Assembly: GCF_011355085.1 (NCBI RefSeq)
Contig: NZ_VXCP01000029.1
Location: 1-64,000 of the forward strand
Direction of reading: 5' to 3'
From: Pseudomonas akapageensis
GTDB taxonomy: Bacteria; Pseudomonadota; Gammaproteobacteria; Pseudomonadales; Pseudomonadaceae
DNA: 64,000 nt
Shown here: one piece after another, positions 42,402 through 63,605 of the stretch
Numbering within the stretch: the first letter of the stretch is position 1
Layout of the letters: every line of letters starts with the position of its first letter
Position numbers and translations under genes: made by a program
Notes under the pieces: model-generated
Told to the model about the DNA's origin: nothing
Databases searched by the model: none
Seen by the model: the letters and a program-made list of their open reading frames with translations, nothing else

Positions 42402-42618
42402 GCTGCTCTCCTGAAGGTGAAGGATGTCGAGGCGAACTATCCTCCCAGCCAGCAGCACCCCACATCCCCGCGCTGGACTAACCCCCAAGGGTGACTCGGG
42501 TAACTTGCACGTGCCGACGTGTGACGCATCCTCCGTTTGAACGATGTCCGCCACATCCCGGCGCGCGAGTCTTGAGCAAAAGCCACGAAATCCGTGGCCC
42601 CCAGGATGGGCGACACCT

Positions 42619-43945: not shown

Positions 43946-43976
43946 CGCAGGGCCTCTAATTACCCCAAGGCCAGGA

Positions 43977-44295: not shown

Positions 44296-44492
44296 ACGCC
44301 TATGTGCGGGCCGGCTGTACCATCCCAGGACAGCAGCCAAGTAGTCTGTTTGAGGGATTACGCGTTCCTGGCCTTGATTGACCATGGGTCCAAGGCCTCG
44401 CCTGGAAGTCGGCTCAGGCCCGAGCACCCTGGATGAGCTGCGCCGCAATGCGGCCGATCCATCCATCAACCGAAACGAGGATCTTGATCGCT

Positions 44493-48200: not shown

Positions 48201-48996
48201 GATGCAACCGTCGAACCGTCGTCGCGCGCAGATGGCTCCCGCGCCAGAGCCTGAGGTCTGAGCAAGCCGGACGCAAGACTAGGGTCGTCGCCTGCGAGCC
48301 GGTACTCTGAGCGCTGGCGAAACCGAAGCCGATCGTATGCGCGACGTTCATCAGCTGTGGGTTTCTCGGCATGACGGTGGTCACGGACACGAAGCCAAGT
48401 GTCGTCTCGAGTCCCCATTCGCAGTCGATCGCTGTAAAGTCGAACGTCTGCATCAGCTGGTTACATACCGCCTCCATGTGATCAAGAACTGCCGTGTCCA
48501 GATACGGCGAATGATCGTGACCGACATCGCCACAAACATCGATATTCAGCAACGGCTGCACAAAGCATGGAATGGCCTCGACATGATCGTAACGCCCCGA
48601 AAGCGCAAGCTGGCGTCGTGCGTGCTCGGTCGATCCACTCATGGCCACAGCGGCAATGCGCCGTATGAGCGCTTGGGGCTCGGGACATATCAGACTTTCG
48701 TAGCCGCCGGCATTGACGTGATCCGTCAGATCCTCGTTACCTGCACTACGCACGATCCAGGGACCTGGACCACAGACGTCCTCCACTTGTCGCGTCAGCT
48801 GTGGAAAAGCCTCCTCCAAAGCGGCTGCGTAAATCGATACTGGGTCGTCCGCCTGTGCCAGGCCGCCCGCCACTGCGGTCGGCAAAGGGGCGATCGGAAA
48901 GACGGGCAGGACAAGACTACTTAGGGATTCGATCTTCCGAATGCGCAGAAGCCGATCCACCTTGGGTCCGTAGAGCTGTTCTTCGTCTGTAGTCAT
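45295..48996 (-). CDS. Giant protein with PEP-synthase/rifampicin-phosphotransferase-like N-terminus
   Basis: A 1233-residue protein. Residues 81-100 (IVRSAGNEDL and AGGYES) resemble the nucleotide-binding VRSSATAEDL..AGQQET of PEP synthase, PPDK and rifampicin phosphotransferase. LLQVRP at 267-271 corresponds to their LQARP. EGSAEEHAGIMFRQQ (345-359, His351) resembles the swivelling phosphohistidine domain. The remaining 840 or so residues match nothing I recognise and lack the PEP-binding barrel. It may phosphorylate the cluster product or an intermediate, or confer self-protection; both are inference. It is last in the leftward operon, after the exporter. Confidence 0.6.
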   Translation of the reverse strand: MTTDEEQLYGPKVDRLLRIRKIESLSSLVLPVFPIAPLPTAVAGGLAQADDPVSIYAAALEEAFPQLTRQVEDVCGPGPWIVRSAGNEDLTDHVNAGGYESLICPEPQALIRRIAAVAMSGSTEHARRQLALSGRYDHVEAIPCFVQPLLNIDVCGDVGHDHSPYLDTAVLDHMEAVCNQLMQTFDFTAIDCEWGLETTLGFVSVTTVMPRNPQLMNVAHTIGFGFASAQSTGSQATTLVLRPACSDLRLWRGSHLRATTVRRLHLLQVRPAYPDDAFRDRDVLTDACRAALIGRYDVAEAGLLMLGTQSSGRALVAPDLMCAWRRYLALNAWEQAGVAVVIVDEGSAEEHAGIMFRQQKITCVRMDTRRMPAGADCVVFDRGALILGDSTMLRSIQSELRRELVLPDDCALVFTDEVLIPGGELAPDCVEVLTQLRRLPVGREVKDRLLALSEQPTPARWMQRADGVVESPSLLAAIWRSKNPGYAGEYCALTEFARDYERAVQVSQGRPQRDLRTLFALSSVTRTLVASGDLRIVMALLACEAATSWVPPQTLRRLLDSAAVQLTALRRDNAVLILESLAFVRTECVRLPVYVLDDAASYIDALAHDLEDGLLVEAMVSIRSLELPIASGILLTRQALNNPAVLEPVDAFRQSVTSFRSIVSGGEATAQLPQQLNDAYLTLRDALYVVGLDNVAEQIRGSLVETYDATLKMLLGRVVDEGDVSSYGRYLMVMQWWIRFLCMGSLPERDAAVLQRFQIWLRQWTDEAIPESFEIQDRNWRFEFDAIVASRETPQRYENPHVLHNLLHQYSLTGLRIDTQRLPRRVQALEHFCSTFSSRSTKVLRFERELLEIQIPMGTHKASYVFTPRQISVEWTEPPDCPGGEIARILAFEVFLDRFRAWMFPALTVRREQVLGTWTLFIRLNAQGSDPWDYEHLRHFVVATRLLFDASYDFSYVVNEAVEGFAECFDGPQWKAILTTLIRHRAVLDDASQYVALHALPMSSTVAAMARSRVVRGLLLRCLRRGFDYCLGLIDGYAHWLNQESADDGLWSDRYESLRQASLFLAANWPRQALSELAGRGIFNVGDDLIAACLFKRSDLADDLRQIVAAGSSTLSGMPAMIVRHAPEIAVEGRGATLLATQLIGTGTRFRRAKHFLAARFGDRLDQDILAGLLRDLDAIPWGHTADAEQAIQAQILMRGPVCRFEMEKGIDWTTLDSWPTLVQTRPASLGPT

Positions 48997-49114
48997 GGTT
49001 TAGCACCCAAGATTCGATGAATAAGATGGTGCAGCATGGCGATGGGCCGGCAACGGCATATATCAATCTCGCTACACTTTCGGTGCAGGCACGTCTTCAA
49101 GGGGTCACGTACTT

Positions 49115-50947
49115 TCATCTAGGGTCGCCCAGGAATCCGCCGCTTTGGTGAGCCCACAACCTCGCGTATAGACCTCCTTGCGCAAGCAGGGTCGTGTGGT
49201 CGCCCTGTTCGACAACACGTCCCTCATCAAGCACGATCAAACGGTCCATCGCCGCGATGGTGGACAACCGGTGCGCGATCGCAATCACGGTCTTGCCTTC
49301 CATTAACCGGTAAAAGCTCTGCTGGATTACGGCTTCGACTTCGGAATCAAGTGCACTGGTCGCCTCATCGAGCAGCAGGATCGGTGCGTCCTTCAGCATC
49401 ACGCGAGCAATGGCAATACGCTGACGCTGTCCACCAGAGAGCTTGACGCCGCGCTCGCCCACATGCGCCTCGTAACCGCAGCGATTGCCCGCATCACCGA
49501 GATCTTGGATAAAGGTATGTGCCTCTGCGCGCCGGGCAGCCGCTTCAATCTGCGCCGGAGTCGCATCGGGTCTGCCGTAGGAAATGTTGTCGGCTACCGA
49601 CCGATGCAGAAGTGAGATGTCCTGCGTGACTATGCCGATTTGGCTGCGCAACGAATTCTGCGTAGCGTGTGCGATGTTCTGCCCGTCGATAAGGATGCGA
49701 CCGTTTTCTAGATCATGGAAGCGCAGCAGCAAGTTCAATAGCGTCGACTTGCCGGCCCCCGAGCGGCCAACCAGGCCAATCTTTTCACCAGGCTTGACCG
49801 TGAGGTCCAGATCGTCGATCACTCGTGACCCGTTTTCGGCATAGCGGAAGCTCACTCGTTCGAAGCATACTTCGCCACGTGTCTCTGCGAGTTCGACGGC
49901 GCCAGGTACATCGAGAACGGCAGGTGGGATCGACAGCATCTTCATGCCGTCCTGCACCGTGCCGACGTTCTCGAACAGGCTGGTCATCTCCCACATGAGC
50001 CACTGCGACATGCCTTGCAGCCGCAACGCCATAGCGGTGCAGGCGGCTACGGCGCCCACTCCCACTACACCTTGCGACCACAACCACAACGCGGTACCCG
50101 TCGTGCCAATAGTGAGCCCAATGCTCAGGAGATGGTTGACGATCTCAAAGGCGCTCACTAGCCGCATCTCGCCGTAGCCAGTGCGCATGAATTCGCGCAT
50201 CGCCTCGTGCGCAAACCCTGCCTCGCGCTGCGTGTGCGAGAACAGTTTGACAGTGGCAATGTTGGTATAGGCGTCGGTCACGCGTCCCATCAATAGCGCT
50301 CGCGCGTCAGCCTGCTCCTTGCCGAACTTGCCAAGGCGAGGCACGAAATAGAACAACGCGGCGATGTAAAGGACAAGCCAGATCACGAAGGGCCATACCA
50401 ACTGCGCATCGAGCACGGCAACCAGGACGATCATGGTAGTTATGGAGACACTCATAGCGACCATGACGTCGGCCAACACGAATATGGTTTCGCGTACCGC
50501 AAGTGAGGTTTGCATCACCTTCGCCGTGATACGACCCGCGAACTCATCCTGATAGAAGGCCATGCTCTGCCCCAGCATCAGCCTGTGAAAGTTCCACCGC
50601 AGCCGCATAGGCAGGTTCACCGTGAGGGTCTGATGCTTGACGACGGACTGCAGCGCCACTACTACGATGCTGGCCACCATTACAGCAACCAGCCATAGTA
50701 ATGTCTCGCCACGCTCAGCCCACAGGCGTGACGGCTCCTGCAAGCTGAGCCAGTCGACGATGCGGCCGAACATGGCAATCAGCAGCGCCTCTAACGCCGA
50801 CATAATCATCGTGAGTACCGCCATGGCGGCGATCTTGCCGCGTACGCCCTGCGTGCAAGCCCAAAGAAAGGCGAAAAATCCCCGGGGCGGCGGTGATGGC
50901 TCGGCGGCAGGGAACGGACAGAGCAATTTTTCAAAGAAGCCGAGCAA
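49115..50947 (-). CDS. ABC exporter, fused permease and ATPase
   Basis: A 610-residue half-transporter of the type I exporter class with about six membrane helices. The ATPase has Walker A GRSGAGKST, signature LSGGQRQR, Walker B ILLLDEATSALD and an H-loop AHR. It is expected to dimerise in the inner membrane and export a small molecule, most likely the cluster product. The start appears to be a TTG at 50947 with GTGAGG upstream; no ATG is nearby. Confidence 0.9.
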   Translation of the reverse strand: MLGFFEKLLCPFPAAEPSPPPRGFFAFLWACTQGVRGKIAAMAVLTMIMSALEALLIAMFGRIVDWLSLQEPSRLWAERGETLLWLVAVMVASIVVVALQSVVKHQTLTVNLPMRLRWNFHRLMLGQSMAFYQDEFAGRITAKVMQTSLAVRETIFVLADVMVAMSVSITTMIVLVAVLDAQLVWPFVIWLVLYIAALFYFVPRLGKFGKEQADARALLMGRVTDAYTNIATVKLFSHTQREAGFAHEAMREFMRTGYGEMRLVSAFEIVNHLLSIGLTIGTTGTALWLWSQGVVGVGAVAACTAMALRLQGMSQWLMWEMTSLFENVGTVQDGMKMLSIPPAVLDVPGAVELAETRGEVCFERVSFRYAENGSRVIDDLDLTVKPGEKIGLVGRSGAGKSTLLNLLLRFHDLENGRILIDGQNIAHATQNSLRSQIGIVTQDISLLHRSVADNISYGRPDATPAQIEAAARRAEAHTFIQDLGDAGNRCGYEAHVGERGVKLSGGQRQRIAIARVMLKDAPILLLDEATSALDSEVEAVIQQSFYRLMEGKTVIAIAHRLSTIAAMDRLIVLDEGRVVEQGDHTTLLAQGGLYARLWAHQSGGFLGDPR

Positions 50948-51064
50948 AATATAGCCTCACTAATATTCCGCGACTGATGCCACACGCCTACCGGGTGGCG
51001 GGTAATGTTTTGACATACCAAGTCAATGCGATAAATGCGTCGCTTGCGCATTCGCTCAAGCACT

Positions 51065-52330
51065 TCAGCTGTCGATCAACCTGGCTACTTTTTCGAAGGC
51101 GGCGGCCACATGTTCTATCGCGCTCGTATCGGCCAACAGCATCCGGTGAGGAAGAGCGATGCAGGACCTGGAAAATTCTTGCGCTATAGGCAATTGATAA
51201 CGGGTTGGATCGACCGCATCGGTGAATGCCTTGCCCAGCCCGAACCGGTTTCTCGAGGAGGGCTTGTAGAGACGATTCTGGTTAAGCGCGCTGTACATCG
51301 TCTTGCAGGGCAACCGAATTTCCGCAGACAGCGCCGCAGCGAACCTCTCCGCGCCCTGTGTCTCGACAATCGACTGCGGCAACCGCACCACGTAGATGTA
51401 ATGCGCCCGCTCCGTGGTGCGAGGGGCGGTAGCCTGTGGCAGGAAACCAAGAGAAACCAGAAAGCTGTCCAGAACGGCGGCATTACGACGCCTATGTGCC
51501 AGTTGCTCGTCCAACACCTCCAGTTGCGCCACCAGGATGGCGGCATGAAACTCCGAGAGACAATGGTTGTTGCCCATGATCTCCGCGGTTTCGACCAGCG
51601 CCATCTCATCCATTCCAGGGGGCTGTGCAGAGAGCGTTCGGCCGTCGGCCCGCAGGTGCGCCAGGCGGCGTGCGACGCCCTCGTTGTCAGTAATCACCGC
51701 CCCACCCTCGCCGCTCGTCAACAGCTTGCTGTGCTGCATCGAAAACGTACCTGCCGCGCCGAAACAACCAACATGCCGACCGGCATACCTGGCGCCATGT
51801 GCCTGGGCGCAATCTTCGATCAAAGGAAGGGAGTGCGCCTGAGCGATTGCTACGAGGCGATTCAGGTCGGCGACCGCCGATCCAAGATGGACCACAGTGA
51901 TGGCTCGCGTACGCCGCGTGATTGCGCGCTCAAGTGCCACTGGATCAAGGCAACCGGTCTCGGGTTCCACGTCGGTGAGGACGGGGATAGCATTGATGCC
52001 GAGTACCGCGGACGCTGATGCGACCCAGCTCACGCCGGGCACGATTACCTCGTCGTGCGCCCCGACCTCGCAGGCCTCCAACGCCATACTCAAGCTGGCG
52101 GTGCCCGTCGAGGACGGCACGCAATACCCGGCGCCAGTGTATTCGGCAAACGCCTTTCCGAAACGCTCTTCCCAAGACGGCTGCCCGCGGTATTGACCAC
52201 TGATGGACCATCGGTGGCTGCCCAGTACGGCATTGACATTACGCAGGGTGTTATCAGTGCTCTGGGGCCAGTTGGGCCAATTCCCGTCGTGGACCGGCGT
52301 CCCTCCGTAAATTGCTAGCTTTTCCAACAT
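51065..52330 (-). CDS. DegT-family aminotransferase, scyllo-inosose aminotransferase-like (BtrS/StsC type)
   Basis: A 421-residue PLP enzyme. The WPQSTDNTLRNVNAVLGSHRWSISG opening (given in part) closely parallels L-glutamine:2-deoxy-scyllo-inosose aminotransferases, followed by VPSSTGTASL, the PLP-contacting EDCAQAHG and FSMQHSKLLTSGEGG with the Schiff-base Lys at about 202. NNHCLSEFHAAIL is also typical. The expected reaction is glutamine-dependent amination of a cyclitol ketone made by the synthase at 56358. The ATG at 52330 has GGAGG upstream. Confidence 0.85.
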   Translation of the reverse strand: MLEKLAIYGGTPVHDGNWPNWPQSTDNTLRNVNAVLGSHRWSISGQYRGQPSWEERFGKAFAEYTGAGYCVPSSTGTASLSMALEACEVGAHDEVIVPGVSWVASASAVLGINAIPVLTDVEPETGCLDPVALERAITRRTRAITVVHLGSAVADLNRLVAIAQAHSLPLIEDCAQAHGARYAGRHVGCFGAAGTFSMQHSKLLTSGEGGAVITDNEGVARRLAHLRADGRTLSAQPPGMDEMALVETAEIMGNNHCLSEFHAAILVAQLEVLDEQLAHRRRNAAVLDSFLVSLGFLPQATAPRTTERAHYIYVVRLPQSIVETQGAERFAAALSAEIRLPCKTMYSALNQNRLYKPSSRNRFGLGKAFTDAVDPTRYQLPIAQEFSRSCIALPHRMLLADTSAIEHVAAAFEKVARLIDS

Positions 52331-52427
52331 GGATGCCTCCGTCAATCAGGGTTAATTCGGTCTATCCAGGACAGCCACGGGATCAAGCCAGCGGTTGTTC
52401 CGGATCAACTCTTTCGCTAGAACGGAT

Positions 52428-53135
52428 TCAATTCACGCGTCGCCACAGGCGCTCCGCATATCGTGCGATGCCGGTGCCGACACGACCGGCATGTAGCAGC
52501 ATCTCAGCGATGGTGGATGCACTGGTCTGTGAACGGTAACCCCACATGTCCTCGCATTTGCTTTCCAACACAACTTCGATGTCGGCCGTCATGGCGGGTG
52601 CTAGGCCTTGAATGGCAAGCTGTCTTTCGAGTTCCGGGAGCGGCAAGCTCGAGCTGTAGGGAACGTCTTCGTAGTAAAGGACTTCGACGTGATCCAGCGT
52701 ATCAGCGGCAATTCGTACGATCTGATGATCGACATGCCCACCAAGGCCGCACGGAGCAAGCACAACCTGAGGCGACCGACACGCCACGGCGTTACGGATC
52801 AAGTTCACGACGTCCTCGGTCCTGGGATCATCGGTGGCTGCGATGCTAAGTTCTGTCGCTTTGTCATATCCCATCACAAAGCTGTCTGGACAGGACAACA
52901 GGTCGTAATCGATCCGCCGTCGCGCGCAATACGCTCGATCCTCCCGCTCCCGTTCTGCCGATATCGCATGTGCAGATTTCTCCCACGAAGCCTGCGGCAG
53001 TGCCCATCCGCTGTGGCCGAAGATTGTTACGAGACGGAGATCCGCTCGCATAGAAAGCCGCACAACGATGCCGCCTATGGAGTAGGCAATATCATCCGCG
53101 TGAGGTGATAGCAGCAGGATTCGCCTGCCCATCAT
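52428..53135 (-). CDS. PIG-L family N-acetyl sugar deacetylase
   Basis: A 235-residue LmbE/PIG-L-type zinc deacetylase. SPHADDIAYSIGG carries the His-x-Asp-Asp metal motif (Ala in place of the usual Pro) and GLGGHVDHQ the second metal site. In 2-deoxystreptamine pathways an N-acetylglucosaminyl intermediate is deacetylated after glycosyl transfer; this gene would fit that step. An ATG at 53135 with CTGGAG upstream is preferred to a GTG overlapping the aminotransferase stop. Confidence 0.82.
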   Translation of the reverse strand: MMGRRILLLSPHADDIAYSIGGIVVRLSMRADLRLVTIFGHSGWALPQASWEKSAHAISAEREREDRAYCARRRIDYDLLSCPDSFVMGYDKATELSIAATDDPRTEDVVNLIRNAVACRSPQVVLAPCGLGGHVDHQIVRIAADTLDHVEVLYYEDVPYSSSLPLPELERQLAIQGLAPAMTADIEVVLESKCEDMWGYRSQTSASTIAEMLLHAGRVGTGIARYAERLWRRVN

Positions 53136-53155
53136 TGACTCCAGAGATGACGAGA

Positions 53156-54403
53156 TCACCGCTCCTCCTTGATCCAGCGAATCGCTTCCTCGACAGGAAC
53201 GAGATCGTTGGCTCCGTCTATCATGCGAAAGGCTGCCTGGAAGCGCCGCTTCCGGTTGATCGACACGGGGCCGCCTCTTCCGAACCGTTGCGAAGTGGCA
53301 GTGAGCCCTTTCTCGAAACGTTCGAGCAATTCGTCAAGTACGTCGCCGGTCGCGAGCGAGACAGCTTGATTGTCCCCTTCGTATAGAAGTAGGCCCGCCA
53401 TGGCACAATTCGCGTACAGGGCTTGATCCAGGGCTTCTGTGGCACCCACGATTTGCAGCATTGGACCATCGCCGTAGATCACGATCGGCAGCCCCCTGCG
53501 TTGCACGATATTGCGCATTTCTGCAGCCAGGGTGGCTCCACACTGGACCAATCGCTGGTAACCATCGTGGCTGTCCATGTAGTCCAATGTGGCCAACGCT
53601 GCCACGATCGGGATCGTGTCAAAATAGGCGGTATAGGTGAACTCCTTCGCCGCGGCCATCACATCGGATCGGCCCACCAGGCACGAGAGTCGGTGGCCAT
53701 TCGCCAATCCTTTGGCGAAGGTGTACAGATCTGCATGGAAGCCGACCGTCCGTGGAAATTGGGAGGCGCGCACCGAACGGTAGCCTTGCTTGACGTCATC
53801 GCAGCACAACAGCACCCGCTCATCCCTAGCGATTTTCGCCAGCCGACGAAGTGTATCCGGTTGCAAGTGGACGTAGTCCGGCGACAGAATTACCAAGGCC
53901 GTTTGTCCGCGATGCCGCTCAAGCACCTGTTCCAGCAGTTCTGGCACGAAGTAGAAGTCAATGACTCCACTCGCATTGGCTTCCAGTAGATTGTCACTCG
54001 TAGCCCAGTAGTCGCCCCAGCCGTGATAACCCGCACTTGCAATGAAGTGCCGGCCCGTGAATTGCCGCGCAGCCTGAACGGCGGCTCGACAGGCTTCCGT
54101 CCCCGTACTGAACAGGGCAAGCCGCGCTTCGTCCATTCCGACGTCGTCGATGATCCGGTTTGTGAGCACCTCATGCAGGTCACTCCAGCAGGTCGCCGAT
54201 GCCAGCCCGCTGTGTAAATGGCGAGTAATCGCCAAGTTCACTGCTGGGTGGTGGTGCCCGAGCGTGACGCCGCCTTTGCCATTCATCAGGTCGATATACT
54301 GCTTGCCGTCCGAGAGCGTCACCGTGGCCCCACTGGATCTGATGGCGCGCAGCCTAGGCTGTGCAGTGCAGATGTTGCTGACGATGTGCTGAGGTCTGTC
54401 CAT
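53156..54403 (-). CDS. Class III aminotransferase (GSA/6'-aminotransferase-like)
   Basis: A 415-residue PLP enzyme of the glutamate-1-semialdehyde aminomutase type. STGTEACRAAVQAAR (99-113), the YHGWGDYW segment (126-133), CCDDVKQGYR (200-209) and the PLP Lys231 in LYTFAKGLANG are visible. Class III enzymes make the 6'-amine of neomycin/butirosin after a GMC oxidase step; the GMC gene at 58096 would be the partner. It starts 1 base after the phosphoribosyltransferase-like gene ends. Confidence 0.87.
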   Translation of the reverse strand: MDRPQHIVSNICTAQPRLRAIRSSGATVTLSDGKQYIDLMNGKGGVTLGHHHPAVNLAITRHLHSGLASATCWSDLHEVLTNRIIDDVGMDEARLALFSTGTEACRAAVQAARQFTGRHFIASAGYHGWGDYWATSDNLLEANASGVIDFYFVPELLEQVLERHRGQTALVILSPDYVHLQPDTLRRLAKIARDERVLLCCDDVKQGYRSVRASQFPRTVGFHADLYTFAKGLANGHRLSCLVGRSDVMAAAKEFTYTAYFDTIPIVAALATLDYMDSHDGYQRLVQCGATLAAEMRNIVQRRGLPIVIYGDGPMLQIVGATEALDQALYANCAMAGLLLYEGDNQAVSLATGDVLDELLERFEKGLTATSQRFGRGGPVSINRKRRFQAAFRMIDGANDLVPVEEAIRWIKEER

Positions 54404-54404
54404 G

Positions 54405-56255
54405 TCATTTCCGGGAAGGCGCGTCGATCTCGGCCAACTTGGAAGTTGTCCGCATCAATTGATGGAAGTCTTCATAGAGGGTGATGCGTCCACTTTCGCT
54501 GGGTATTCTCACGCTGCGAACTCTAGACTCGACGATCGTCAGCGCAGCCAGTGACAGGCACTCCCTTACGCTCGACCAGGTGAGACCGCACATCGATGCG
54601 AGCTGCCCAGCGTCATCGATCGCCAGGCAATTTTCGAGAATGAAAGCTGCCAATTCCAGCTCGGGAAAGCTGATGTCTCCCCAGTTTGCTTCCAGCTGAA
54701 AACGATGAAGCCTTCCGTGTCGGTCAACCTGCCAATGCCAGCCACCGCTGCCATAACGTAGTGACGAACGGAAGGCCCTGCCCGTCCGTCCCGGCCACGG
54801 TACCGGCTCCGCTAGAAACACTCTCAGTGGCTCAGATATTTCCTGTAGCGGATCGCAACCGCACCACTTTCGCATGGTATCTGCCATTGCCGACCAGCGA
54901 GGATCAAGTTCCATGACCACGGGGCTGTGGTACGTGTGCGCAATGGTTTGCCGTGCAGGGGCGGCCAGCCAGTTCGCCGCTTGAAGCAGTAAGTCGGCTC
55001 GTCTCGGCTGGCTCGCAGCATGAAACTGCTCCTGGAATGATTGTGTGGCCCCGATGTCGACCGTGATGGCATAACCGTCAACTAGCCAGGCTACCCCCAT
55101 TGAACCCATCTTCCTCACGCGCTCGAACTCCGCACGCCCGAACACGCCTTCGCCGATAAAACGCAGATGTAACAACGCCTCACCATCAGGCCCAAGAATT
55201 TCGATCGGCGTCTTGCGTGGGTTCACCAAAGGGCGACACCCGTTCAGGACCCGTGGATCGTTCCATGGGAGCCAGGCGCGACTGAGCCCGTAACGCATTT
55301 CACCGTGTGGGCACCGGAAGTGAAGTCGCACCTGGGCCGGGAGCGAAGGAATGCCCGCTGTATCCCGCAGTCGTGCGATGAATTCAGGTTGTTCACCAGG
55401 TAGCAAGCATTCCCAAAGCCGTGGTGCACTCGAGTTGCGCATCACGTGCGTCTGTGAGTGTGCCGGCATCGGCTGCACCGCCGGACCGTGCCAAAGAGTT
55501 CCGATGCTCGAGAACCATAGATCGACGACGGGCTCGCGCAACTGTGCCGCTACACCTTCCATGGTGGCTCCGGTATCCGGACGATCGTCCACCACCACGA
55601 TCACAGGGGCGAATCGGTGCTCCAACCAGGCCCGCGCGATTTCCAAGTCATCCGACGTTGCGCATCCTTCTCGCGGGCGCACCGTACACCAGTGCACATC
55701 GGCAACGCCCAACCCGGTCAGTACTGCCTTCCAGAGCGGAGCAAGGTATGTTCCACCGGTGCGGATCCCAACAATCAGGAAGGCCCGATCAAGGCGCACC
55801 TGCGCGATCAATTGATCAACGTCGCTGGCAATCAACGCAAGATCAGCAAGGTCGTAGCCACAGCACTCCGGGATCGGCAGGTGGAGCACTTTGCTCAGAG
55901 AATTGAGCGATGAGTTGGCATGGAGCGCGACACTCGCAGAGGCGAGGTGATCGATGTTTATGGACGCAGTCGCGGTCCGCCCCAGCATCATCTGTGCGGC
56001 GCAATCGGCTGCACATTCGGCGTGGCGAAGCTGCTCTTCGAGTTCTTCCATCGTCGTATCGCCAAGCACGCCGTTCGATTTTCCCACAGCGATCAGGTCG
56101 GCCCAGAATTGCACGCTGGCGCAGGCCACCAGATATCGGTCCAGAGGGTTTGGGGTGGCTGCGGCACACAGGCGACTCAATGCAAGCCTGATATCGATGC
56201 GCATCAGTCCCACAGAGCCCGCCTGGGCAGGTTGGTTAACAAGAGGGTCGTTCAT
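54405..56255 (-). CDS. Phosphoribosyltransferase-domain protein, 616 aa
   Basis: The N-terminal half has a PRTase fold signature: IVGIRTGGTYLAPLW and the PRPP loop VIVVVDDRPDTGATM (about residues 217-232 from the chosen start). The C-terminal 350 residues, with GEGVFGRAEFERV and many Trp, match nothing I recognise. In butirosin biosynthesis a PRPP-dependent phosphoribosyltransferase (BtrL) attaches ribose to the neamine core before dephosphorylation, so this is a candidate ribosylation enzyme. No clear phosphatase gene accompanies it. ATG at 56255; a TTG at 56270 is an alternative. Confidence 0.65.
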   Translation of the reverse strand: MNDPLVNQPAQAGSVGLMRIDIRLALSRLCAAATPNPLDRYLVACASVQFWADLIAVGKSNGVLGDTTMEELEEQLRHAECAADCAAQMMLGRTATASINIDHLASASVALHANSSLNSLSKVLHLPIPECCGYDLADLALIASDVDQLIAQVRLDRAFLIVGIRTGGTYLAPLWKAVLTGLGVADVHWCTVRPREGCATSDDLEIARAWLEHRFAPVIVVVDDRPDTGATMEGVAAQLREPVVDLWFSSIGTLWHGPAVQPMPAHSQTHVMRNSSAPRLWECLLPGEQPEFIARLRDTAGIPSLPAQVRLHFRCPHGEMRYGLSRAWLPWNDPRVLNGCRPLVNPRKTPIEILGPDGEALLHLRFIGEGVFGRAEFERVRKMGSMGVAWLVDGYAITVDIGATQSFQEQFHAASQPRRADLLLQAANWLAAPARQTIAHTYHSPVVMELDPRWSAMADTMRKWCGCDPLQEISEPLRVFLAEPVPWPGRTGRAFRSSLRYGSGGWHWQVDRHGRLHRFQLEANWGDISFPELELAAFILENCLAIDDAGQLASMCGLTWSSVRECLSLAALTIVESRVRSVRIPSESGRITLYEDFHQLMRTTSKLAEIDAPSRK

Positions 56256-56357
56256 AGTTATCGCACGCAAAGAGATCCGTGGGCGCGTCGATCGCGAAAC
56301 CTCGACGTCATTAGAGATTGGCTGGCCCGCAAATGGCCATGACTTGAAAAGCCCTTG

Positions 56358-57503
56358 TCACTGCCGAGATTTCTCGACGGCGATATCCTTGATCTCCGTT
56401 AAGCAATCCTCAATGCAACACTGAACTAGCGAGGCTTCGACCAGTATCAGGGGTCTACCAACTGGTCCGGCCGGCGCCCCCAGGCCATCTAGCAGGATCA
56501 TGGCAACCTGATCAGGACGAGCGCAGACATAACCTCGCTTGTTGTCCGTGCGCAGCAGCGCCATCACTGCAGCGACAGTAACCCCGGCCGGCAACCGAAC
56601 CGTCAGTCCATTACGTCTGAGTAGCCGATAATGAAGACTCCGGTCTGCTTCGCTCAGCCGCCCTAAGCGACTGGCAACTTCAGCTGCCACGATCATTCCG
56701 AGGCCGACGGCTTCTCCATGTGGTACTCGCCCCTCCGCTGCCAGTTCGATTGCGTGGCCAACCGTGTGGCCGTACTCGAACACAAGAGCCTCTTTGCGCT
56801 CGCATTTATCGGCTTTCATCACCCTCTGCTTTGCAAGCAAACCTGCCTCGACAATGACCAAGAGTTCCTTATCGGAATAATTGGCGTCCGGCTTCAATCC
56901 ACTTTCGAGCAGCGGTATGGTCTCGGTTGCCACGGTCAATGCGTTCTTGATGATCTCGAACATGCCAGACCGAATTTGCGTCGCCGGCAACGTCCGGAGG
57001 AAGTGAATATCAATCAGAACAGCGGTGGGCTTGTGAAAACAGCCAAGCAAATTTTTGCCTATAGAAAGATTCACTGCCTGCTTGAGCGAGGCTACTGAAT
57101 CTGCCGCCGCTATTAATGTCGTCGGCACATGTACGAGGCGAATACCGCGAAACAGCAATGCAGCTATTAATCCCGCGAGATTTCCGACAACCCCGCCACC
57201 CACGGCGACAATGACGCTACCCCGGTCAATACCAGCCTGAACCATTTTGTGGGCAAGACGCTCGACAGTTTCCAAGGATTTGAATGATTCGCCATTGTCG
57301 ACGACCCATAGACTGGCAACCACCTGAGCGGAAAGTTGCTCACACAATACGCCCGCATGCAACTGACTGACTGTTCTGTCGGTAATTAAGTGATAGCTAG
57401 AGGCACCAAATTCACGCAAACCCGATATGATTTCATCCAAGCATCGAACGCCAATCCATACCGGGTAGCACTCATCTTCGAATTGAAGTCGCAAGTTACG
57501 CAT
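56358..57503 (-). CDS. Sugar phosphate cyclase, 2-deoxy-scyllo-inosose synthase-like
   Basis: A 381-residue dehydroquinate synthase-superfamily enzyme using NAD and a metal. GGGVVGNLAG (102-111) binds NAD. ADSVASLKQAVNLSIGKN (134-151) carries the KQAVN typical of 2-deoxy-scyllo-inosose synthases, where dehydroquinate synthases have other residues. Metal ligands Glu183, His246 (FEYGHTVGH) and His262 (HGEA) are one residue off those I recall for BtrC, and DNKRGY (320-325) is conserved. It should convert glucose-6-phosphate to 2-deoxy-scyllo-inosose, the first step of 2-deoxystreptamine synthesis. It is first in the leftward operon, with GAGAGAG before the ATG. Confidence 0.85.
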   Translation of the reverse strand: MRNLRLQFEDECYPVWIGVRCLDEIISGLREFGASSYHLITDRTVSQLHAGVLCEQLSAQVVASLWVVDNGESFKSLETVERLAHKMVQAGIDRGSVIVAVGGGVVGNLAGLIAALLFRGIRLVHVPTTLIAAADSVASLKQAVNLSIGKNLLGCFHKPTAVLIDIHFLRTLPATQIRSGMFEIIKNALTVATETIPLLESGLKPDANYSDKELLVIVEAGLLAKQRVMKADKCERKEALVFEYGHTVGHAIELAAEGRVPHGEAVGLGMIVAAEVASRLGRLSEADRSLHYRLLRRNGLTVRLPAGVTVAAVMALLRTDNKRGYVCARPDQVAMILLDGLGAPAGPVGRPLILVEASLVQCCIEDCLTEIKDIAVEKSRQ

Positions 57504-58095
57504 AAGACTCTCTCAATTATTCAAGAGCATAGTTAGCAACATGACGCTTATCGCCACCGAGCCACTCAATACGGCCTAAGGCTAGGTACCCAGTCACAAA
57601 GTACATGACATCACAGAACACCGACGCCAATCACACTCATGTGGCAAACGCATCACTTATAAGAAAACCAAATTCAACGAACAAAATTTGACCGTCGATC
57701 ATGGGTATCGCACCAAACACAGCGTGAACACTGCGAATATAAATGCAATCAAGGCTGCCGTGATGTCAACAAAATTTTCGTGTAATTTGTGATATCTGAA
57801 AATTACTACGAAGTCCTAGGAGCGATACTACATATCTTTCTTATATAAAATAAATTTTCCAACTTGCAATTTCTCCCCCTCAGTTTCTCTGCTAAGGTGA
57901 TTTCACTTGGGACAAAAAGGCACGCTATCGGCGATAGGCCAAGTGAATGCACGCTTGGGCAGTGCTACCCCATAGGCGTACGTTTGCGCATCTATAATTG
58001 ATTTGTTGGAAAGCGCGGATTATTTACTCGATAGGAAAGCGAGATATCTGCGTTGCACGCCTACGTGTAATCACGTTAGAGGACGATCCATAACG
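57504..58095. promoter_or_regulatory. AT-rich divergent control region of the biosynthetic cluster
   Basis: 592 bases without a gene, much more AT-rich than the flanks. Toward the GMC gene, TTCACTTGG (57902-57910) and CCAAGTGAA (57939-57947) form a perfect 9-bp inverted repeat. It encloses a second hairpin, CTATC-GGC-GATAG (57925-57937). It could be a regulator site or a structured 5' leader. Both divergent promoters must lie here. Confidence 0.6.
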
Positions 58096-59706
58096 ATGAC
58101 TTCTTCACTAAACCAGTACGCCGAAGACTGCGCGCTCGGTATATCCCATATACATGGGCTGCGGTCAAACATTCTGTTAGATGATCCTTTCGACGTGGTC
58201 ATCATTGGTAGTGGGGCCGCTGGTGCGGTTGCTGCAGACACCTTCGTTCGAGCCGGACTTCGCACCCTCTTGCTGGAAGAAGGTGTGAGACTTAAGGCGA
58301 GTGCAAAGAATGCGGACGTTGACGCGCAAGCCGGGCACGCATTGGCTGGCAATTCCACACAAGGATGGAATCCGCGGGGATGGCCATGGAGTACCCGCAA
58401 TCTTGGTGGCGGAACGGTTTTCTATGGCGGTGCCTCGTTTCGGTATACCGATTTCGATTTCGATCCCAGCGAGCGCATCCGTGTTGACGGACTACCGGTG
58501 AAATGGCCAATCAACGCTTCCGATCTCGCTCCTTTTTACAACGAGATAGAATCGAGTCTTTCCATCGACCACGCAGGGTTTGAGAGTAGGCGAAGACAGG
58601 CACCTAATACGTTGAGCCTGCCCGCGGAACATCTTTGGGAAGGAGCGCTCCGGCTCGGCCTGTCCCCCCGCCCGACTCCTGTAGCGATCGACCGCAGCCG
58701 GTGTGACCACTGCTCCTTATGTATCGCGGCACAGTGCACGCGCGGCGCCAAGAGCGATGTGGTGAATTCCCTGCTCGGCCCCTTGGCCGATATGCCCAAC
58801 CTGCTGCTTCTGACCGGCGTGAAGGCCGTGGCACTAACACAGGAAAAGTGTACCCACGCCAGCGCGGTGCAGTGCATGGACACCATAACCGGTCAGATCA
58901 GTTCCGTCCGTGGGCACCGTTTTGTGTTGGCCTGCAATGCAATTCAAACGGCCGCATTACTGCTGCGCTCGATCACACCTTATGCCCCAGGAGGTCTTGG
59001 CAACGAGCACGATATGGTTGGTCGGGGTCTCTGCATGAAACTCAGCGAGTATTCGCAGGGCATGGTGAATGCTGACCGACAACTAATCAACGATCATCCA
59101 ATCGGTTATCGGGGGCCTTTCTCGACGGTCTGCACGCTTGACTATTATCTGGACGAACGTTGTCCGACCGGTGTCGGTGGACTGATCTACGAAGCAAAGC
59201 ACGACGACTGGAGCCTTCTACAGGGCGATGGTTTGGTATTACGCGTGGAAACCATTCTTGCTGACCATCCGTCTCTCGGGAATCGGATCCGTCTCTCCAG
59301 TAGTACGGACTCATGGGGCCTGCCGCGATTGATGATCGACTACACAAAAAATCCACAGGATCTAGCACGCCTGGCTTATATGGTCGAGCGCTCAGCCGAC
59401 TGGCTCACGTTCGCCGGCGCGCGGGATATCCAACATCAAGTCTCGAACTTCGCAATGGGCAGCACTCACCTACACGGTACTTGTCGCGCGGGTGACGATC
59501 CGCGGACTTCCGTGGTGGATCGGGATGGCAAGCTCCATTCGCTGGATAATGTCTACGTTGTGGATGGCAGCTACATGCCCTACCCGGGCGGAGTGAATCC
59601 CACTCTGACGATCCAGGCCAATGCCTTGAGAATTGCTCGCCAGATCGCCCGCGACGCAACGGGTCATGCAAGCGCCTCGCAAGCGGCGCAGCCCTGCTCT
59701 AACTGA
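58096..59706 (+). CDS. GMC-family FAD-dependent oxidoreductase
   Basis: A 536-residue alcohol oxidase/dehydrogenase. The FAD motif GSGAAG is at 38-43, a Cys cluster (Cys203, Cys206, Cys209, Cys214) lies mid-protein, and the C-terminus has STHLHGTCRAG and GGVNPTLTIQANAL, the active-site His and Asn regions. GMC enzymes (BtrQ/Neo11) oxidise the 6'-hydroxyl of paromamine before transamination, so the class III aminotransferase is a logical partner. It could instead oxidise the cyclitol ring. The ATG at 58096 is chosen over a TTG 93 bases upstream. Confidence 0.85.
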   Translation: MTSSLNQYAEDCALGISHIHGLRSNILLDDPFDVVIIGSGAAGAVAADTFVRAGLRTLLLEEGVRLKASAKNADVDAQAGHALAGNSTQGWNPRGWPWSTRNLGGGTVFYGGASFRYTDFDFDPSERIRVDGLPVKWPINASDLAPFYNEIESSLSIDHAGFESRRRQAPNTLSLPAEHLWEGALRLGLSPRPTPVAIDRSRCDHCSLCIAAQCTRGAKSDVVNSLLGPLADMPNLLLLTGVKAVALTQEKCTHASAVQCMDTITGQISSVRGHRFVLACNAIQTAALLLRSITPYAPGGLGNEHDMVGRGLCMKLSEYSQGMVNADRQLINDHPIGYRGPFSTVCTLDYYLDERCPTGVGGLIYEAKHDDWSLLQGDGLVLRVETILADHPSLGNRIRLSSSTDSWGLPRLMIDYTKNPQDLARLAYMVERSADWLTFAGARDIQHQVSNFAMGSTHLHGTCRAGDDPRTSVVDRDGKLHSLDNVYVVDGSYMPYPGGVNPTLTIQANALRIARQIARDATGHASASQAAQPCSN

Positions 59707-59730
59707 ACATCAATCAGAAAGTGACCACAC

Positions 59731-59979
59731 ATGACACCCCACTTCATCCGCCAACTCGTCATTCACACAATCTGCAATGTGACCGGCGAAACCCCAAAAG
59801 ATGTTACGGCCCTCGACAGGGTTGAATTGAATACACGCGATTGGGAGCAGGTCTTCAGCCGGCTGGAAGCGACGCTCGACATCCAGACCGGTATGTTGAC
59901 TTCAGCCGAGCGATCGATCTCCATCGACGCGTTGATGCGTGTGCTGCACGCCAGGCTAACAGACGACATCGTCACCTGA
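59731..59979 (+). CDS. Acyl carrier protein-like protein with Thr at the Ser site
   Basis: An 82-residue helical protein with ACP-like layout (IRQLVIHTICNVTGETPKDV, then LEATLDI and a final VLHARL helix). The usual Asp-Ser-Leu at the start of helix 2 is replaced by NTR (Thr35 aligns with the phosphopantetheine Ser). It may be a non-acylated scaffold or an ACP with unusual attachment, or only superficially ACP-like. It lies 24 bases after the GMC gene. Confidence 0.55.
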   Translation: MTPHFIRQLVIHTICNVTGETPKDVTALDRVELNTRDWEQVFSRLEATLDIQTGMLTSAERSISIDALMRVLHARLTDDIVT

Positions 59980-60168
59980 CCGATACGTGGTCGGAATCGT
60001 CGTGAGTCCTGACGCGCGTCGTGACCTCGCCCGTCCGGATAGCTGAGGACGTTGCATGATGTTTTCGCGTCTCATCAGGTAGTCGCGACAGGCGCACTTA
60101 ACGGTCACCCGGCTCTACACTCTCGAACTGCCATCGGCCCTTATTCATTTACCAAAGGCCTGATTTGT

Positions 60169-61404
60169 ATGAAAGTCTTGAAGCTGACGCCCTTTTTCCA
60201 TCATCCGGATGCTGACTCGTGGCCAGCGGCGTACGACTCGGTAGGTGGCATGCAGGTCCAGACCTGGCGACAGGCAGTCTGGCTCGCTCAGGAAGGTATC
60301 CATCAACATGTTATGACCATCGGCTTCCCCGGACTGCCCAAGCTGCGACAGTTGCATCCATTTCTGTGGGTAGAGCGCATGCTACTACCCATGCCGCGGA
60401 TACGGTCCGAGTTCAGTGGTTTGATCGGGCTGACGCAGTCGTGGGCCGTGGCAACACTATCTGCACTGCTCAAAAAAGGGCGTAAGCATGATTTCGATGT
60501 CGTTCATACGCACCTCGACGGACAAATTCCAGCGCTGCTGGTCGCTTGTTTAGCGCCTCGATTACTACGGCGCCCGCTGATCCTGACGGTGCACTGCTCT
60601 CGTCTCGCGGTCTACACGCCGCATTCCTGGCTGGACATGCTTCAGCACCGTCTTGCCCGGTGGCTGGAACGCAAAGCCGTGGGCACGGCTTTCGTGGTAG
60701 TCGCCCTGACCCAACGAACCGCTTCCCAACTCACACGTGATGCTCGTCATGTCGAGATCGTTCCCGACGTGGTCGACACCACAGAATTCGCGCCGCCCCC
60801 GCAAGAAGGCGTAATTGCGTTCCGCAAACGTCATAATCTGCAACGGCAAACGGTGGGCTTTGTCGGCCGCAGCGCGAAAGAAAAAGGATGGCGACATCTT
60901 ATCCCGCTCGCCCAGGCACTTCGCGAGCAAGAGTGCGAGTTGCTGATCGTCGGCGACGGGACACAGCGGGATCGGCTGCGGCACGCCATTTACAAGGCTG
61001 GACTGCAAGATTGGGTGACAGTTACGGGCTTCATCCCCAATCATGAAGTGCCCCTGGCGATCGCGGCCTGCCGTCTGATCGTGATGCCGTCAGCGCATGA
61101 AGAGTTCGGGGGAGCCAGTATTGAAGCGCTGGCTACAGGCGTCCCGGTGGTGGCTTTTGCCGTTGGCGGTCTTCCGGAAATTCTGCGCGGCATTACGCCC
61201 GACCTACTGATCGCACCGGAAGATACGACCGCGCTGATTGCACGAGTAAAGGCGGTGCTGGCCGGGCACCATTCGCAGAGTATCGAACCGGCGCGGTTGC
61301 GTGCCTACGTTGAGCAACGTTATGCCCCATCCGCAATGGGCGCCCGAATCCTGGAGCTATACCGGTTGGCGCTAATCAACTCCACGAAACCTGTCAGACC
61401 ATGA
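60169..61404 (+). CDS. GT4-family glycosyltransferase (BtrM/NeoM type)
   Basis: A 411-residue GT-B retaining transferase. The N-terminal PDADSWPAAYDSVGGMQVQTW is the acceptor-side start seen in aminocyclitol glycosyltransferases, and the C-terminal SAHEEFGGASIEALATGVPV is the E-x7-E nucleotide-sugar site. In 2-deoxystreptamine pathways such an enzyme adds N-acetylglucosamine from UDP-GlcNAc to the cyclitol. I used the ATG at 60169; a TTG at 60052 would add 39 unlike residues. Confidence 0.87.
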   Translation: MKVLKLTPFFHHPDADSWPAAYDSVGGMQVQTWRQAVWLAQEGIHQHVMTIGFPGLPKLRQLHPFLWVERMLLPMPRIRSEFSGLIGLTQSWAVATLSALLKKGRKHDFDVVHTHLDGQIPALLVACLAPRLLRRPLILTVHCSRLAVYTPHSWLDMLQHRLARWLERKAVGTAFVVVALTQRTASQLTRDARHVEIVPDVVDTTEFAPPPQEGVIAFRKRHNLQRQTVGFVGRSAKEKGWRHLIPLAQALREQECELLIVGDGTQRDRLRHAIYKAGLQDWVTVTGFIPNHEVPLAIAACRLIVMPSAHEEFGGASIEALATGVPVVAFAVGGLPEILRGITPDLLIAPEDTTALIARVKAVLAGHHSQSIEPARLRAYVEQRYAPSAMGARILELYRLALINSTKPVRP

Positions 61405-61480
61405 GTGCCGTAGCGCAGCAACTGCGCGGCATCGGCAGCGACTCGTCCAACGTAAAACGGCCCGTCACGGAGGATTCTCG

Positions 61481-62371
61481 ATGTCGCTGATTCACCTTCC
61501 CAACACCGCTTCAGCATCGGAAGTGGAGCAATGCTTGCGCGAGAACGGTTACGCCATCATTGACAAACTCGTACCCGGCACCGCTATGGATCGCATCGCC
61601 GAAGAGCTCGAACCCTACACGGCGGTGACGCCCTTCGGGCCTGACGGCATTCTCGGTAGACGGACCAAACGCACCGGTGGGTTAATTGCGCGATCTATAG
61701 GGGCGCGCGAGTTGATCCTCAATCCTACTATTCTCGAGACTACACGGCGCTTTCTCTGTCACGCTACAACGTTTCAGATCCATTGCACGCAGGTCGTGTC
61801 AATTTATCCAGGTGCAACAGCACAAACACTGCATCAAGACGAGGTGGCCTGGGACATGTTCCCCTTTCCTCACGACTATCATGTGCAATGCAATACCCTA
61901 TGGGCCATGACCGACTACTCCGAGCAGATGGGAGCCACTCGCATCGTACCCGGCAGCCACCGATGGGGGCGCAGCATCGAGTTTGATATTGCGACCAGCT
62001 TTCCTGCGGAGATGGAAAAGGGATCAGTACTCGTCTACGACGGAAAGGTGTACCACGGTGGCGGAGCCAATCGCTCCGACCGAATCCGGTCGGCCATCAA
62101 TCTGACTTATGCGCTCGGCTGGCTTCGGCAAGAGGAGAACCAGTTCCTATCCTGTCCGCTAGAAATTGCCCGTACGCTGCCGGACGATCTGCTGCGTCTT
62201 ATGGGCTATCAGTGCGGAGCGTTCGCCCTGGGCTACGTCCACGGGTTCGAAGATCCGATGACTGTGTTGGGGCGGAGTAAACCTGGCAAACTTGTGGGCG
62301 CGGAGCTGATGCTGACGGCCGAGCAGAACAACGATCGCAGGTCTTTCCTGCGGGAAGCAAAATTCGATTGA
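61481..62371 (+). CDS. Phytanoyl-CoA dioxygenase-family Fe(II)/2-oxoglutarate oxygenase
   Basis: A 296-residue PhyH-type oxygenase. The metal triad is His118-x-Asp120 (HQDE) and His192 (YHGGGANR), with an Arg near 201 for 2-oxoglutarate. Such enzymes hydroxylate or desaturate late intermediates of natural products. A GGAGG lies before the ATG. It closes the rightward operon and is followed by a strong bidirectional terminator. Confidence 0.87.
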   Translation: MSLIHLPNTASASEVEQCLRENGYAIIDKLVPGTAMDRIAEELEPYTAVTPFGPDGILGRRTKRTGGLIARSIGARELILNPTILETTRRFLCHATTFQIHCTQVVSIYPGATAQTLHQDEVAWDMFPFPHDYHVQCNTLWAMTDYSEQMGATRIVPGSHRWGRSIEFDIATSFPAEMEKGSVLVYDGKVYHGGGANRSDRIRSAINLTYALGWLRQEENQFLSCPLEIARTLPDDLLRLMGYQCGAFALGYVHGFEDPMTVLGRSKPGKLVGAELMLTAEQNNDRRSFLREAKFD

Positions 62372-62471: not shown

Positions 62472-62957
62472 CTACGCGTGGCAAGTCGGATCAAACAGGC
62501 TGGCGGTCAGCTTGAACTGTTCGGGGAGCGGCGAAGTCAGGGTCTCGAATACACGCCGGTAACCCGTTGCGAGGATCTGCCAGGCCCCATCTCGCTTGAT
62601 GTACTCATCCTGGTAAAAGGCCGTGCCGTGGAGCATCCAGCCGCCGTCCAGGTCGATGACGTGATCTTCCAGGTACCAGGTGCCCCTGGCCCTGTCCGCT
62701 GCCAGCAATTCGATCTCCGGATGGTGGCCCTGGTGCTTGGACAGCAGGCCGGGCCTGTCCATTATCGCCTTGAGTCCCTCAACGAACGCAGCACGGCCGT
62801 CGAAGCTGTATTTGCCGCTGTCGAGGGCCGTTTTCACGTCCTCGGCCAGGCAGGTTTCGAACAAGCTCCAGTCGTGGCAGTCGAGCGCGCGAAAGTAGCG
62901 GTACTTGAGTTGTCTGATCTGCTCGATTTCGAGGTAGGTGTCCATCGTCATAGCCAT
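62472..62957 (-). CDS. SnoaL/NTF2-like protein
   Basis: A 161-residue SnoaL-like protein (YRYFRALDCHDWSLFETCLAED, then GRAAFVEGLKAIM). AGGAA precedes the ATG. It resembles the proteins at 38205 and 63180 in kind, so it probably belongs to the catabolic region that resumes here. Confidence 0.83.
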   Translation of the reverse strand: MAMTMDTYLEIEQIRQLKYRYFRALDCHDWSLFETCLAEDVKTALDSGKYSFDGRAAFVEGLKAIMDRPGLLSKHQGHHPEIELLAADRARGTWYLEDHVIDLDGGWMLHGTAFYQDEYIKRDGAWQILATGYRRVFETLTSPLPEQFKLTASLFDPTCHA

Positions 62958-63179
62958 TGGTTGTGTTCCTGTGAATGTTCCTGTGGATGGTCCTTCGCGC
63001 AGGATAGGCAGGGGTCAGGCGGCACTCATCGTCCGGCCAGACTAGCGACTGCCCCGCTGACCGGACGAACGATGTCCCCTGCCCCTGGCGCTAGTCTCCT
63101 CGGACGATGACCCCTGGTCTGCGCAATGCGAACTTCATCGCACCTGCACCACCGCAGGGCGAATGAGGAGGCTCAGAGG

Positions 63180-63605
63180 ATGTCCGAGGCATCGCACAAG
63201 CAAGCGCTCTACGAACTCGTCTGTCGTTATGCTCAGGCAGTCGACCAACGCGACTGGGCGGCGCTGTCCCGCCTGTTCACCACCCAGGCTTCGCTCAAGG
63301 GGCCGGGGTTCAGCTTCGATGGCGTCACCGCCATCGTCGAAGGCATGAACGGCCTGGGCCACTACAGCAAGACCCAGCACCACATCCATAACCACCTCGC
63401 TGAAGTGGACGACCTGCAAGCCCGCGCGGAAACCTACTGCGTGGCCAACCATGTCTATGAGGCCGAAGGCATCGAGCGCAAGCTCGACTGGGGCATTCGC
63501 TACCGCGACCGATTCGCCTGCGTGGACGGCATCTGGCACTTCACCTGCCGAGAGCTGTTGCTGGACTGGAGCCAGGACCTGCCCTTGCGAGGAGCCGCCC
63601 AATGA
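63180..63605 (+). CDS. SnoaL/NTF2-like protein
   Basis: A 141-residue SnoaL-like protein (CRYAQAVDQRDWAALSRLF, then KTQHHIHNHLAEV). An AGAGG precedes the ATG at 63180. Its stop overlaps the start of the following SDR gene (ATGA), and it is divergent from the SnoaL-like gene at 62472. Confidence 0.85.
   Translation: MSEASHKQALYELVCRYAQAVDQRDWAALSRLFTTQASLKGPGFSFDGVTAIVEGMNGLGHYSKTQHHIHNHLAEVDDLQARAETYCVANHVYEAEGIERKLDWGIRYRDRFACVDGIWHFTCRELLLDWSQDLPLRGAAQ

Follow-up and report, generated by a model that had tools for sequence, protein, structure and literature searches.

Judged from its sequence, a cyclase gene of Pseudomonas akapageensis very probably encodes a genuine 2-deoxy-scyllo-inosose synthase (DOIS), which would start the pathway encoded by an 11-gene cluster of the aminoglycoside type. 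Actinomycetes and bacilli are the classical producers of aminoglycosides; by every sequence test run, this cyclase is a DOIS-family member, an ordinary enzyme in an unusual host. The gene lies in a stretch of 64,000 nucleotides from contig NZ_VXCP01000029.1, which is called the window below. As read from its predicted genes, the cluster departs from known pathways in two tested respects: it holds no gene like BtrN or NeoE, and it gave no match to the phosphatase of its relatives.

The three motifs that an earlier note had quoted as hallmarks of DOIS are all present in the 381-amino-acid cyclase (Table 1), as are E183, H246, and H262, which the same note had given as a characteristic metal triad. 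The triad exists but is not specific to DOIS: K141, E183, H246, H250, and H262 were common to all 53 rows of an alignment that comprised the window protein, 11 Gram-negative relatives, BtrC, 4 actinomycete proteins, and 36 AroB proteins and other cyclases. Diagnostic residues were S139, Q142, N187, and E243, which all 17 rows of the BtrC group share and none of the 36 others has; the same holds for DNKRGY (one of the 36, 5EKS, ends before this site). The 19 proteobacterial AroB rows have G139, T142, N243, and DKK. We take K141 and E243 to have catalytic roles. Actinomycete AroB proteins are represented by the 3 of 15 loci kept by an ORF and motif filter, which dropped L114; the DOIS sequences L033 to L036 (from G334, G260, G189, and G327, two of them repeats of L023 and L025) were outside the alignment, and long N termini were trimmed. 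Across loci, the three motif patterns of the DOIS type co-occurred in 28, several of which are copies of one gene. No locus in this set had just one or two of the patterns, and none of the three occurred in the 55 loci with the AroB-type pattern N[LYF]GHT. The accessible text of PMC4426668 and PMC6170601 held no residue table for DOIS.

Table 1. Genes and motifs of the predicted aminoglycoside-type cluster, in window positions
Feature	Positions	Strand	Basis or remark
1233-aa conserved protein	45295-48996	-	ATP-grasp-like at ~24-268; phosphohistidine swivel-like at ~298-406, with invariant H351; then ~800 aa
ABC exporter, permease and ATPase fused	49115-50947	-	domain matches
DegT family L-glutamine:2-deoxy-scyllo-inosose aminotransferase	51065-52345	-	best solved match 5W70, E 2.6e-143
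PIG-L family deacetylase, putative N-acetylparomamine deacetylase	52428-53159	-	family and published Ps639 annotation
Class III aminotransferase, putative 6'-aminotransferase	53156-54403	-	family and published Ps639 annotation
Putative phosphoribosyltransferase (PRT)	54405-56270	-	PRPP-loop-like VVVDDRPDTGAT at residue 225; Pribosyltran match weak, E 0.064
2-Deoxy-scyllo-inosose synthase (DOIS)	56358-57503	-	ATG start, 381 aa; motifs, BtrC alignment, tree
DOIS motif DNKRGY	56529-56546	-	cyclase residues 320-325
DOIS motif FEYGHTVGHAIE	56745-56780	-	cyclase residues 242-253; H246, H250; E243 where AroB rows have N
DOIS motif ADSVASLKQAVN	57069-57104	-	cyclase residues 134-145; holds S139, K141, Q142
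GMC oxidoreductase, putative 6'-dehydrogenase	58096-59706	+	start inferred, first Met of ORF 58003-59706
DUF6137 protein, 82 aa	59731-59979	+	all-helical model
GT4 glycosyltransferase, putative NeoM-like	60169-61404	+	start inferred, first Met of ORF 60052-61404
PhyH-type Fe(II)/2-oxoglutarate dioxygenase	61481-62371	+	HxD at 118-120; candidate deoxy-scyllo-inosamine oxidase (hypothesis)

In a maximum-likelihood tree, the 17-row BtrC group, including the window protein, was split from the other 36 rows at 100/100 and in 100% of 200 bootstrap trees. Clear grouping with dehydroquinate synthases had been set beforehand as the outcome that would speak against a DOIS, and the tree gave the opposite. 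The branches of BtrC and L109 are longer than 1.4, and the program warned of a possible false join of BtrC and L110 and of an unusual composition of BtrC. Among the DOIS rows of the tree, BtrC alone represents a solved, named enzyme, the rest being assigned by annotation (L043 and L044) or by similarity. BtrC (2D2X/2GRU), from the butirosin pathway, was also the best solved-structure match of the cyclase (258 bits), aligning without a gap over 355 residues (5 to 359) and sharing all diagnostic residues, although at 38.6% identity; the cluster of the window has no BtrN. The runner-up was a dehydroquinate synthase, at 152 bits. Diagnostic residues, best match, and clade together uphold the earlier claim that the cyclase is of the BtrC type and not AroB.

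A second dehydroquinate synthase, or an amino-DHQS-like cyclase, would belong to the same superfamily, have identical metal ligands, and fit the 252-bit hit of the cyclase to the aroB model. We regard this identity as highly improbable, as the protein lies outside the AroB side of the 100/100 branch, has E243 and DNKRGY instead of N and DKK, and coexists with a normal AroB elsewhere in the genome (G000:C1:231941-232903, 33% identical to it). It combined neither AroB grouping nor a score above the aroB cut-off of 305, reaching 252.4 (five other BtrC-group members, 204 to 267); such a score decides nothing alone, because two cyclases outside the BtrC group also fall below the cut-off (257.6 and 276.4, with one above it at 320.7).

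The comparison of subfamilies proposed in the earlier note was thus carried through by alignment and tree for dehydroquinate synthases and DOIS, and for EEVS and a presumed DDGS by bit scores alone, the tree rows including no EVS, EEVS, or DDGS sequences. This makeup of the tree is all that speaks for a sedoheptulose-7-phosphate cyclase (EEVS, EVS, or DDGS) with a C7 cyclitol as product. Such an enzyme is most unlikely: the cyclase scored 95 bits against 5TPR, which we take to be a DDGS (the structure list labels it 3-dehydroquinate synthase), and 104 bits against 4P53, both far under the score for BtrC, and the neighboring DegT protein is closest to DOI aminotransferases. The identity of 4P53 as the EEVS ValA is taken from the literature.

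DOIS is rare in the genus. Matches at E 1e-80 or better were found in 6 of 398 Pseudomonas genomes, the window's own included, and the 1233-aa protein occurs in the same six (6 of the 358 in its genus sample). Among 296 actinomycete genomes, the centre genome alone gave a DOIS-level score, the next match being at 3.4e-49. A contig scan that used the window protein as query, and that detects no more than close relatives, returned 12 loci: five from Pseudomonas, one each from Trinickia, Microtetraspora, and Pseudomonas sp. Root71, and four from Photorhabdus. The earlier note had called a DOIS in Pseudomonas unexpected, and in frequency it is; it is not unreported, having been predicted in 2021. 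The accessible text of that study (eLife; PMC8719888) describes an aminoglycoside-like cluster of eight enzymes in Pseudomonas Ps639, listed as DOIS, phosphoribosyltransferase, aminotransferase, deacetylase, DOI aminotransferase, ParQ-like dehydrogenase, glycosyltransferase, and 2OG-Fe(II) oxygenase, and reads the gene set as a neamine-type pathway. Compared by list and not by sequence, all eight have a counterpart by family in the window. With that prediction in print, neither a DOIS in Pseudomonas nor the product class is new. The accessible account of Ps639 makes no mention of the 1233-aa protein, DUF6137, the exporter, or a missing dehydrogenase (PMC8719888). In the literature searched, with subscription papers mostly outside it, we found no product, assay, or remark on a missing dehydrogenase for such a Pseudomonas cluster. 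In the accessible parts of other Pseudomonas genome mining studies, aminoglycosides are among infrequent PRISM predictions (PMC8704066) and a 5'-hydroxystreptomycin-related cluster is predicted (PMC5953339); the part of PMC6722718 available held nothing relevant. New here, at the level of predicted genes, is a cluster without a BtrN- or NeoE-like gene and without the histidine phosphatase, most of whose relatives carry BtrN.

The 11 genes span positions 45295 to 62371. Six share the orientation of the DOIS gene, and the GMC, DUF6137, GT4, and PhyH genes are divergent from it. Six other loci (L021 to L026; five Pseudomonas and one Trinickia) have all 11 in identical order, and in each of them the 1233-aa gene reaches the end of the locus. 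Beyond these borders, the flanks of six Pseudomonas genomes (ORFs of at least 100 aa, up to about 20 kb on each side and less at contig ends) share matches of just 28 to 35% identity; therefore, we treat the cluster as a discrete unit. Its GC content is 0.576, compared with 0.609 to the left and 0.628 to the right. Around it (33168-45194 and 62472-63605) lie genes for a KshA-type Rieske oxygenase, an FMN oxidoreductase, short-chain dehydrogenases, and SnoaL-like proteins, and these surroundings look like an island for the catabolism of steroids or similar ring compounds. In Pseudomonas helleri (L025; G327:C196), the 1233-aa and PhyH genes are each split by an apparent frameshift, for which decay and sequencing error are both possible, and the 1233-aa match in G002 has one in-frame TGA.

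A DOI aminotransferase, as looked for in 2-deoxystreptamine clusters, is present as the DegT protein with its 5W70 match, and this neighbor supports the earlier view that the cyclase points to the product class. The putative roles of the glycosyltransferase, deacetylase, 6'-dehydrogenase, and 6'-aminotransferase follow the Ps639 annotation, with the families themselves present. Matches of the GMC protein included 6'''-hydroxyparomomycin C oxidase (1.1e-7). The phosphoribosyltransferase is likewise putative, assigned from a weak domain match, a motif, and the published annotation. Gene by gene, the cluster presumably differs from the neomycin and paromomycin clusters of Streptomyces in having no NeoE-type gene and in holding a PPDK-like protein and DUF6137. 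In enzyme classes, as annotated in the accessible text of PMC8719888, it is like them; the counterparts named there for the GMC protein and the PRT are ParQ-like and NeoL-like, respectively.

By a mechanism that we take over from BtrC, the cyclase, with NAD and a divalent metal, would most likely oxidize D-glucose-6-phosphate at C4, eliminate phosphate, re-reduce C4, and close the carbocycle to 2-deoxy-scyllo-inosose. By homology, the DegT enzyme would then aminate the ring. Of the steps beyond this first amination, all of which we infer, the GT4 enzyme would glycosylate the ring and the PIG-L enzyme deacetylate the sugar, the GMC and class III enzymes would oxidize and then aminate C6', the PRT-like protein may add phosphoribose, and the ABC protein would export the product. 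The cluster has neither of the dehydrogenase types usual for introducing the second ring nitrogen; it therefore does not by itself account for a complete 2-deoxystreptamine route and may make an aminoglycoside by a partly different one. Sorbistin, which we take to be a Pseudomonas aminoglycoside with a 1,4-diaminosorbitol core that would not need a DOIS, was dropped as a candidate product; literature mentioning it gave no link to the cluster.

Related clusters in Photorhabdus (L027 to L030) and Sodalis praecaptivus (L043) have DOIS proteins 52 to 55% identical to that of the window. All five loci share the DegT, PRT-like, PIG-L, and DUF6137 proteins and a homologue of the 1233-aa protein, and four of the five share GT4. 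Unlike the window, all five (the four Photorhabdus loci and Sodalis) have a histidine phosphatase, four have a BtrN-like gene (three of the four Photorhabdus loci, L029 being the exception, and Sodalis), and none has PhyH. The BtrN-like protein of L028, a radical SAM/SPASM protein of 235 aa, has a match to solved BtrN at 9e-60; copies in L027 and L030 (97%) and in the Sodalis locus L043 (80%) adjoin the same clusters. As a query, it gave matches of 80 to 100% in three Photorhabdus genomes, one of them its source, and on the Sodalis plasmid. At E 1e-5, the Photorhabdus cluster phosphatase found no match in eight cluster-bearing genomes (seven Pseudomonas and the Trinickia). We presume that this phosphatase has a role in the ribostamycin-type branch; of the pair by which we would recognize that branch, PRT and cluster phosphatase, a PRT-like protein is present in the window and the phosphatase was not found.

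Among these relatives, the Photorhabdus australis locus (L028, 24-16817), like L027 and L030, has BtrN and the histidine phosphatase together with another radical SAM protein, of 320 aa, and a protein resembling glycosyltransferases, and we take the cluster of these three loci to resemble a fuller, neomycin-like route. In Photorhabdus heterorhabditis (L029, 11111-21110), no GT4, BtrN, GMC, or second radical SAM match was found within 10 kb after the DOIS gene, which suggests that this locus is rearranged or reduced compared with the other three. On Sodalis praecaptivus plasmid pHS1 (L043, 7292-22205), the cluster is reduced: in 33 kb, neither the GMC protein nor the class III aminotransferase had a match.

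Of the enzymes that usually oxidize deoxy-scyllo-inosamine, BtrN is a radical SAM protein and NeoE is NAD dependent, and no gene like either was found among those shared by the Pseudomonas and Trinickia cluster loci. Searching nine cluster-bearing genomes (Pseudomonas G000, G002, G189, G260, G327, G334, G438, and G736 and Trinickia G434) with the L028 protein gave no BtrN orthologue, with nothing in five and one partial match of 20 to 24 bits in each of four. The second query was the alcohol dehydrogenase of a hygromycin-like plasmid cluster, which we label NeoE-type by assumption. It found a 48% homologue in Microtetraspora, on the DOIS contig, and 3 to 9 matches of 26 to 38% identity in each of seven cluster-bearing genomes. 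The best of these were 1.5e-43 in G189, 1.6e-28 in G334, 6.8e-28 in G434, 1.5e-27 in G327 (on the contig of the cluster itself, about 40 kb away), 1.4e-17 in the window genome, 1.5e-15 in G002, and 6.1e-14 in G260; in three genomes without the cluster, best matches of 5.1e-14 to 1.9e-21 were all weaker than those of the first four.

Because four of the seven genomes exceed the cluster-free ones, a chromosomal dehydrogenase is a live rival as the source of the missing oxidation. We give close to an even chance to a true DOIS whose ring acquires its second amine via such a dehydrogenase, or via the GMC enzyme acting twice, with PhyH as a late tailoring enzyme. Members of the PhyH family tailor other aminoglycosides (kanamycin B dioxygenase, a weak match to the window protein at E 0.0014), and the hygromycin-like plasmid cluster holds both PhyH and alcohol dehydrogenase genes. 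However, no such dehydrogenase is among the genes common to the cluster loci, the matches in the window genome, G002, and G260 lie within the range of the cluster-free genomes, and no cluster-bearing genome reaches the identity seen in Microtetraspora.

The PhyH gene is present only in the Pseudomonas and Trinickia clusters, as opposed to those of Photorhabdus and Sodalis. Its copies in nine Pseudomonas and Trinickia genomes are 86 to 100% identical, and at E 1e-10 neither the three Photorhabdus genomes searched nor the Sodalis plasmid gave a match. This contrast with BtrN suggests that one may replace the other, although the pattern separates two sister lineages and may go back to a single switch. 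It is conceivable, if somewhat doubtful, that PhyH takes the place of BtrN or NeoE in Pseudomonas and Trinickia, oxidizing 2-deoxy-scyllo-inosamine to amino-deoxy-scyllo-inosose. Homologues of 46 to 53% identity occur in 6 of 398 genomes of the genus, all outside the six with DOIS, and weaker ones (37 to 40%) occur in 17 further genomes; the context of one homologue (L105), assessed by eye, is fatty-acid and amine catabolism with no aminocyclitol genes. Homologues without DOIS, and this context, weigh against a PhyH subfamily devoted to aminocyclitols. The best solved match of PhyH was SwnH1. An identity with KanJ was rejected on the weakness of the kanamycin B dioxygenase match, and one with HygX on a best E value of 0.18 against the PhyH of the hygromycin-like plasmid cluster.

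The lack of a known second-oxidation enzyme in the cluster, and of a BtrN orthologue in the nine genomes, would also fit a product that keeps the mono-amine ring of 2-deoxy-scyllo-inosamine and is not a 2-deoxystreptamine aminoglycoside. We consider such a product unlikely, given that the remaining genes are read as neamine-type in the accessible text on Ps639 (PMC8719888) and that the related Photorhabdus and Sodalis clusters have BtrN.

Both kinds of cluster, that of Pseudomonas and Trinickia and that of Photorhabdus and Sodalis, encode DUF6137 and a homologue of the 1233-aa protein. The latter had no Pfam match. In its N-terminal half, RSAG.ED, Q.RPA, and EHAGIMFRQQ are invariant across 11 aligned rows, and the model of this half is poor (mean pLDDT, 52.9). 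With this model, the best Foldseek match was PPDK, at E 9.5e-5 but with a TM-score of 0.17, and rifampin phosphotransferase followed at E 0.17; VIA-align matched ATP-grasp enzymes over residues ~24 to 268 and the enzyme I/PPDK swivel over 282 to 406, with Z scores of ~6 to 8, a level that the tool calls common. The low-confidence model thus suggests that a phosphohistidine swivel region follows an ATP-grasp region, and the protein may have a phosphotransfer role, either for synthesis or for self-protection.

DUF6137, a name not found in the literature searched, was detected in 10 of the 11 genomes examined, compared with none of 14 control genomes. The exception was Microtetraspora, where DOIS sits in a different kind of cluster. 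By eye the protein resembles an acyl carrier protein with no Ser at the expected site, which is Thr in seven of nine rows and Ala in two (L024 has a Ser one place before; register set by eye). Its single-sequence model (mean pLDDT, 64.6) had no significant fold match, acyl carrier proteins appearing at E 4.9 and 7.6. On these grounds, a working acyl carrier protein was rejected. In Pseudomonas sp. Root71 (L032, 9322-14027), DOIS is reduced to two scraps next to an intact DUF6137 ORF (86 aa) and an intact 1234-aa PPDK-like ORF, and the genome had no PhyH match at E 1e-10. From this one case, the two genes might be useful on their own, or it might be just a recent deletion.

Other cyclase loci came to light in the searches. 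On a plasmid of Streptomyces sp. NBC_00853 (L109, 11950-21078), a DOIS-group cyclase adjoins an annotated amidinotransferase, a streptomycin biosynthesis protein, and a phosphotransferase, and this locus might encode a deoxy counterpart of the streptidine route. A plasmid of Streptomyces sp. NBC_00015 (L044, 13986-16699) has DOIS and an MFS transporter, with no other annotated aminoglycoside genes in 29 kb. Three proteins of other Pseudomonas strains (L111, L112, and L116; 625 to 672 aa) have an N-terminal part that by eye is apparently membrane bound and a C-terminal cyclase domain with DYGHW[AS]AHKLE replacing the usual motif.

Recurring in Pseudomonas and Trinickia and related to clusters of Photorhabdus and Sodalis, this compact and apparently mobile cluster of Gram-negative bacteria means that the class reaches further, and the strains that bear it are tractable hosts. 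The PPDK/RPH-like protein of both cluster kinds could act in an unrecognized step of biosynthesis or self-protection. The division between clusters with BtrN and clusters with the dioxygenase poses a well-delimited question of biochemistry that could be tested with only two or three proteins in purified form. If PhyH does carry out the oxidation, this step of 2-deoxystreptamine synthesis would have a third chemistry, unrelated to the other two.
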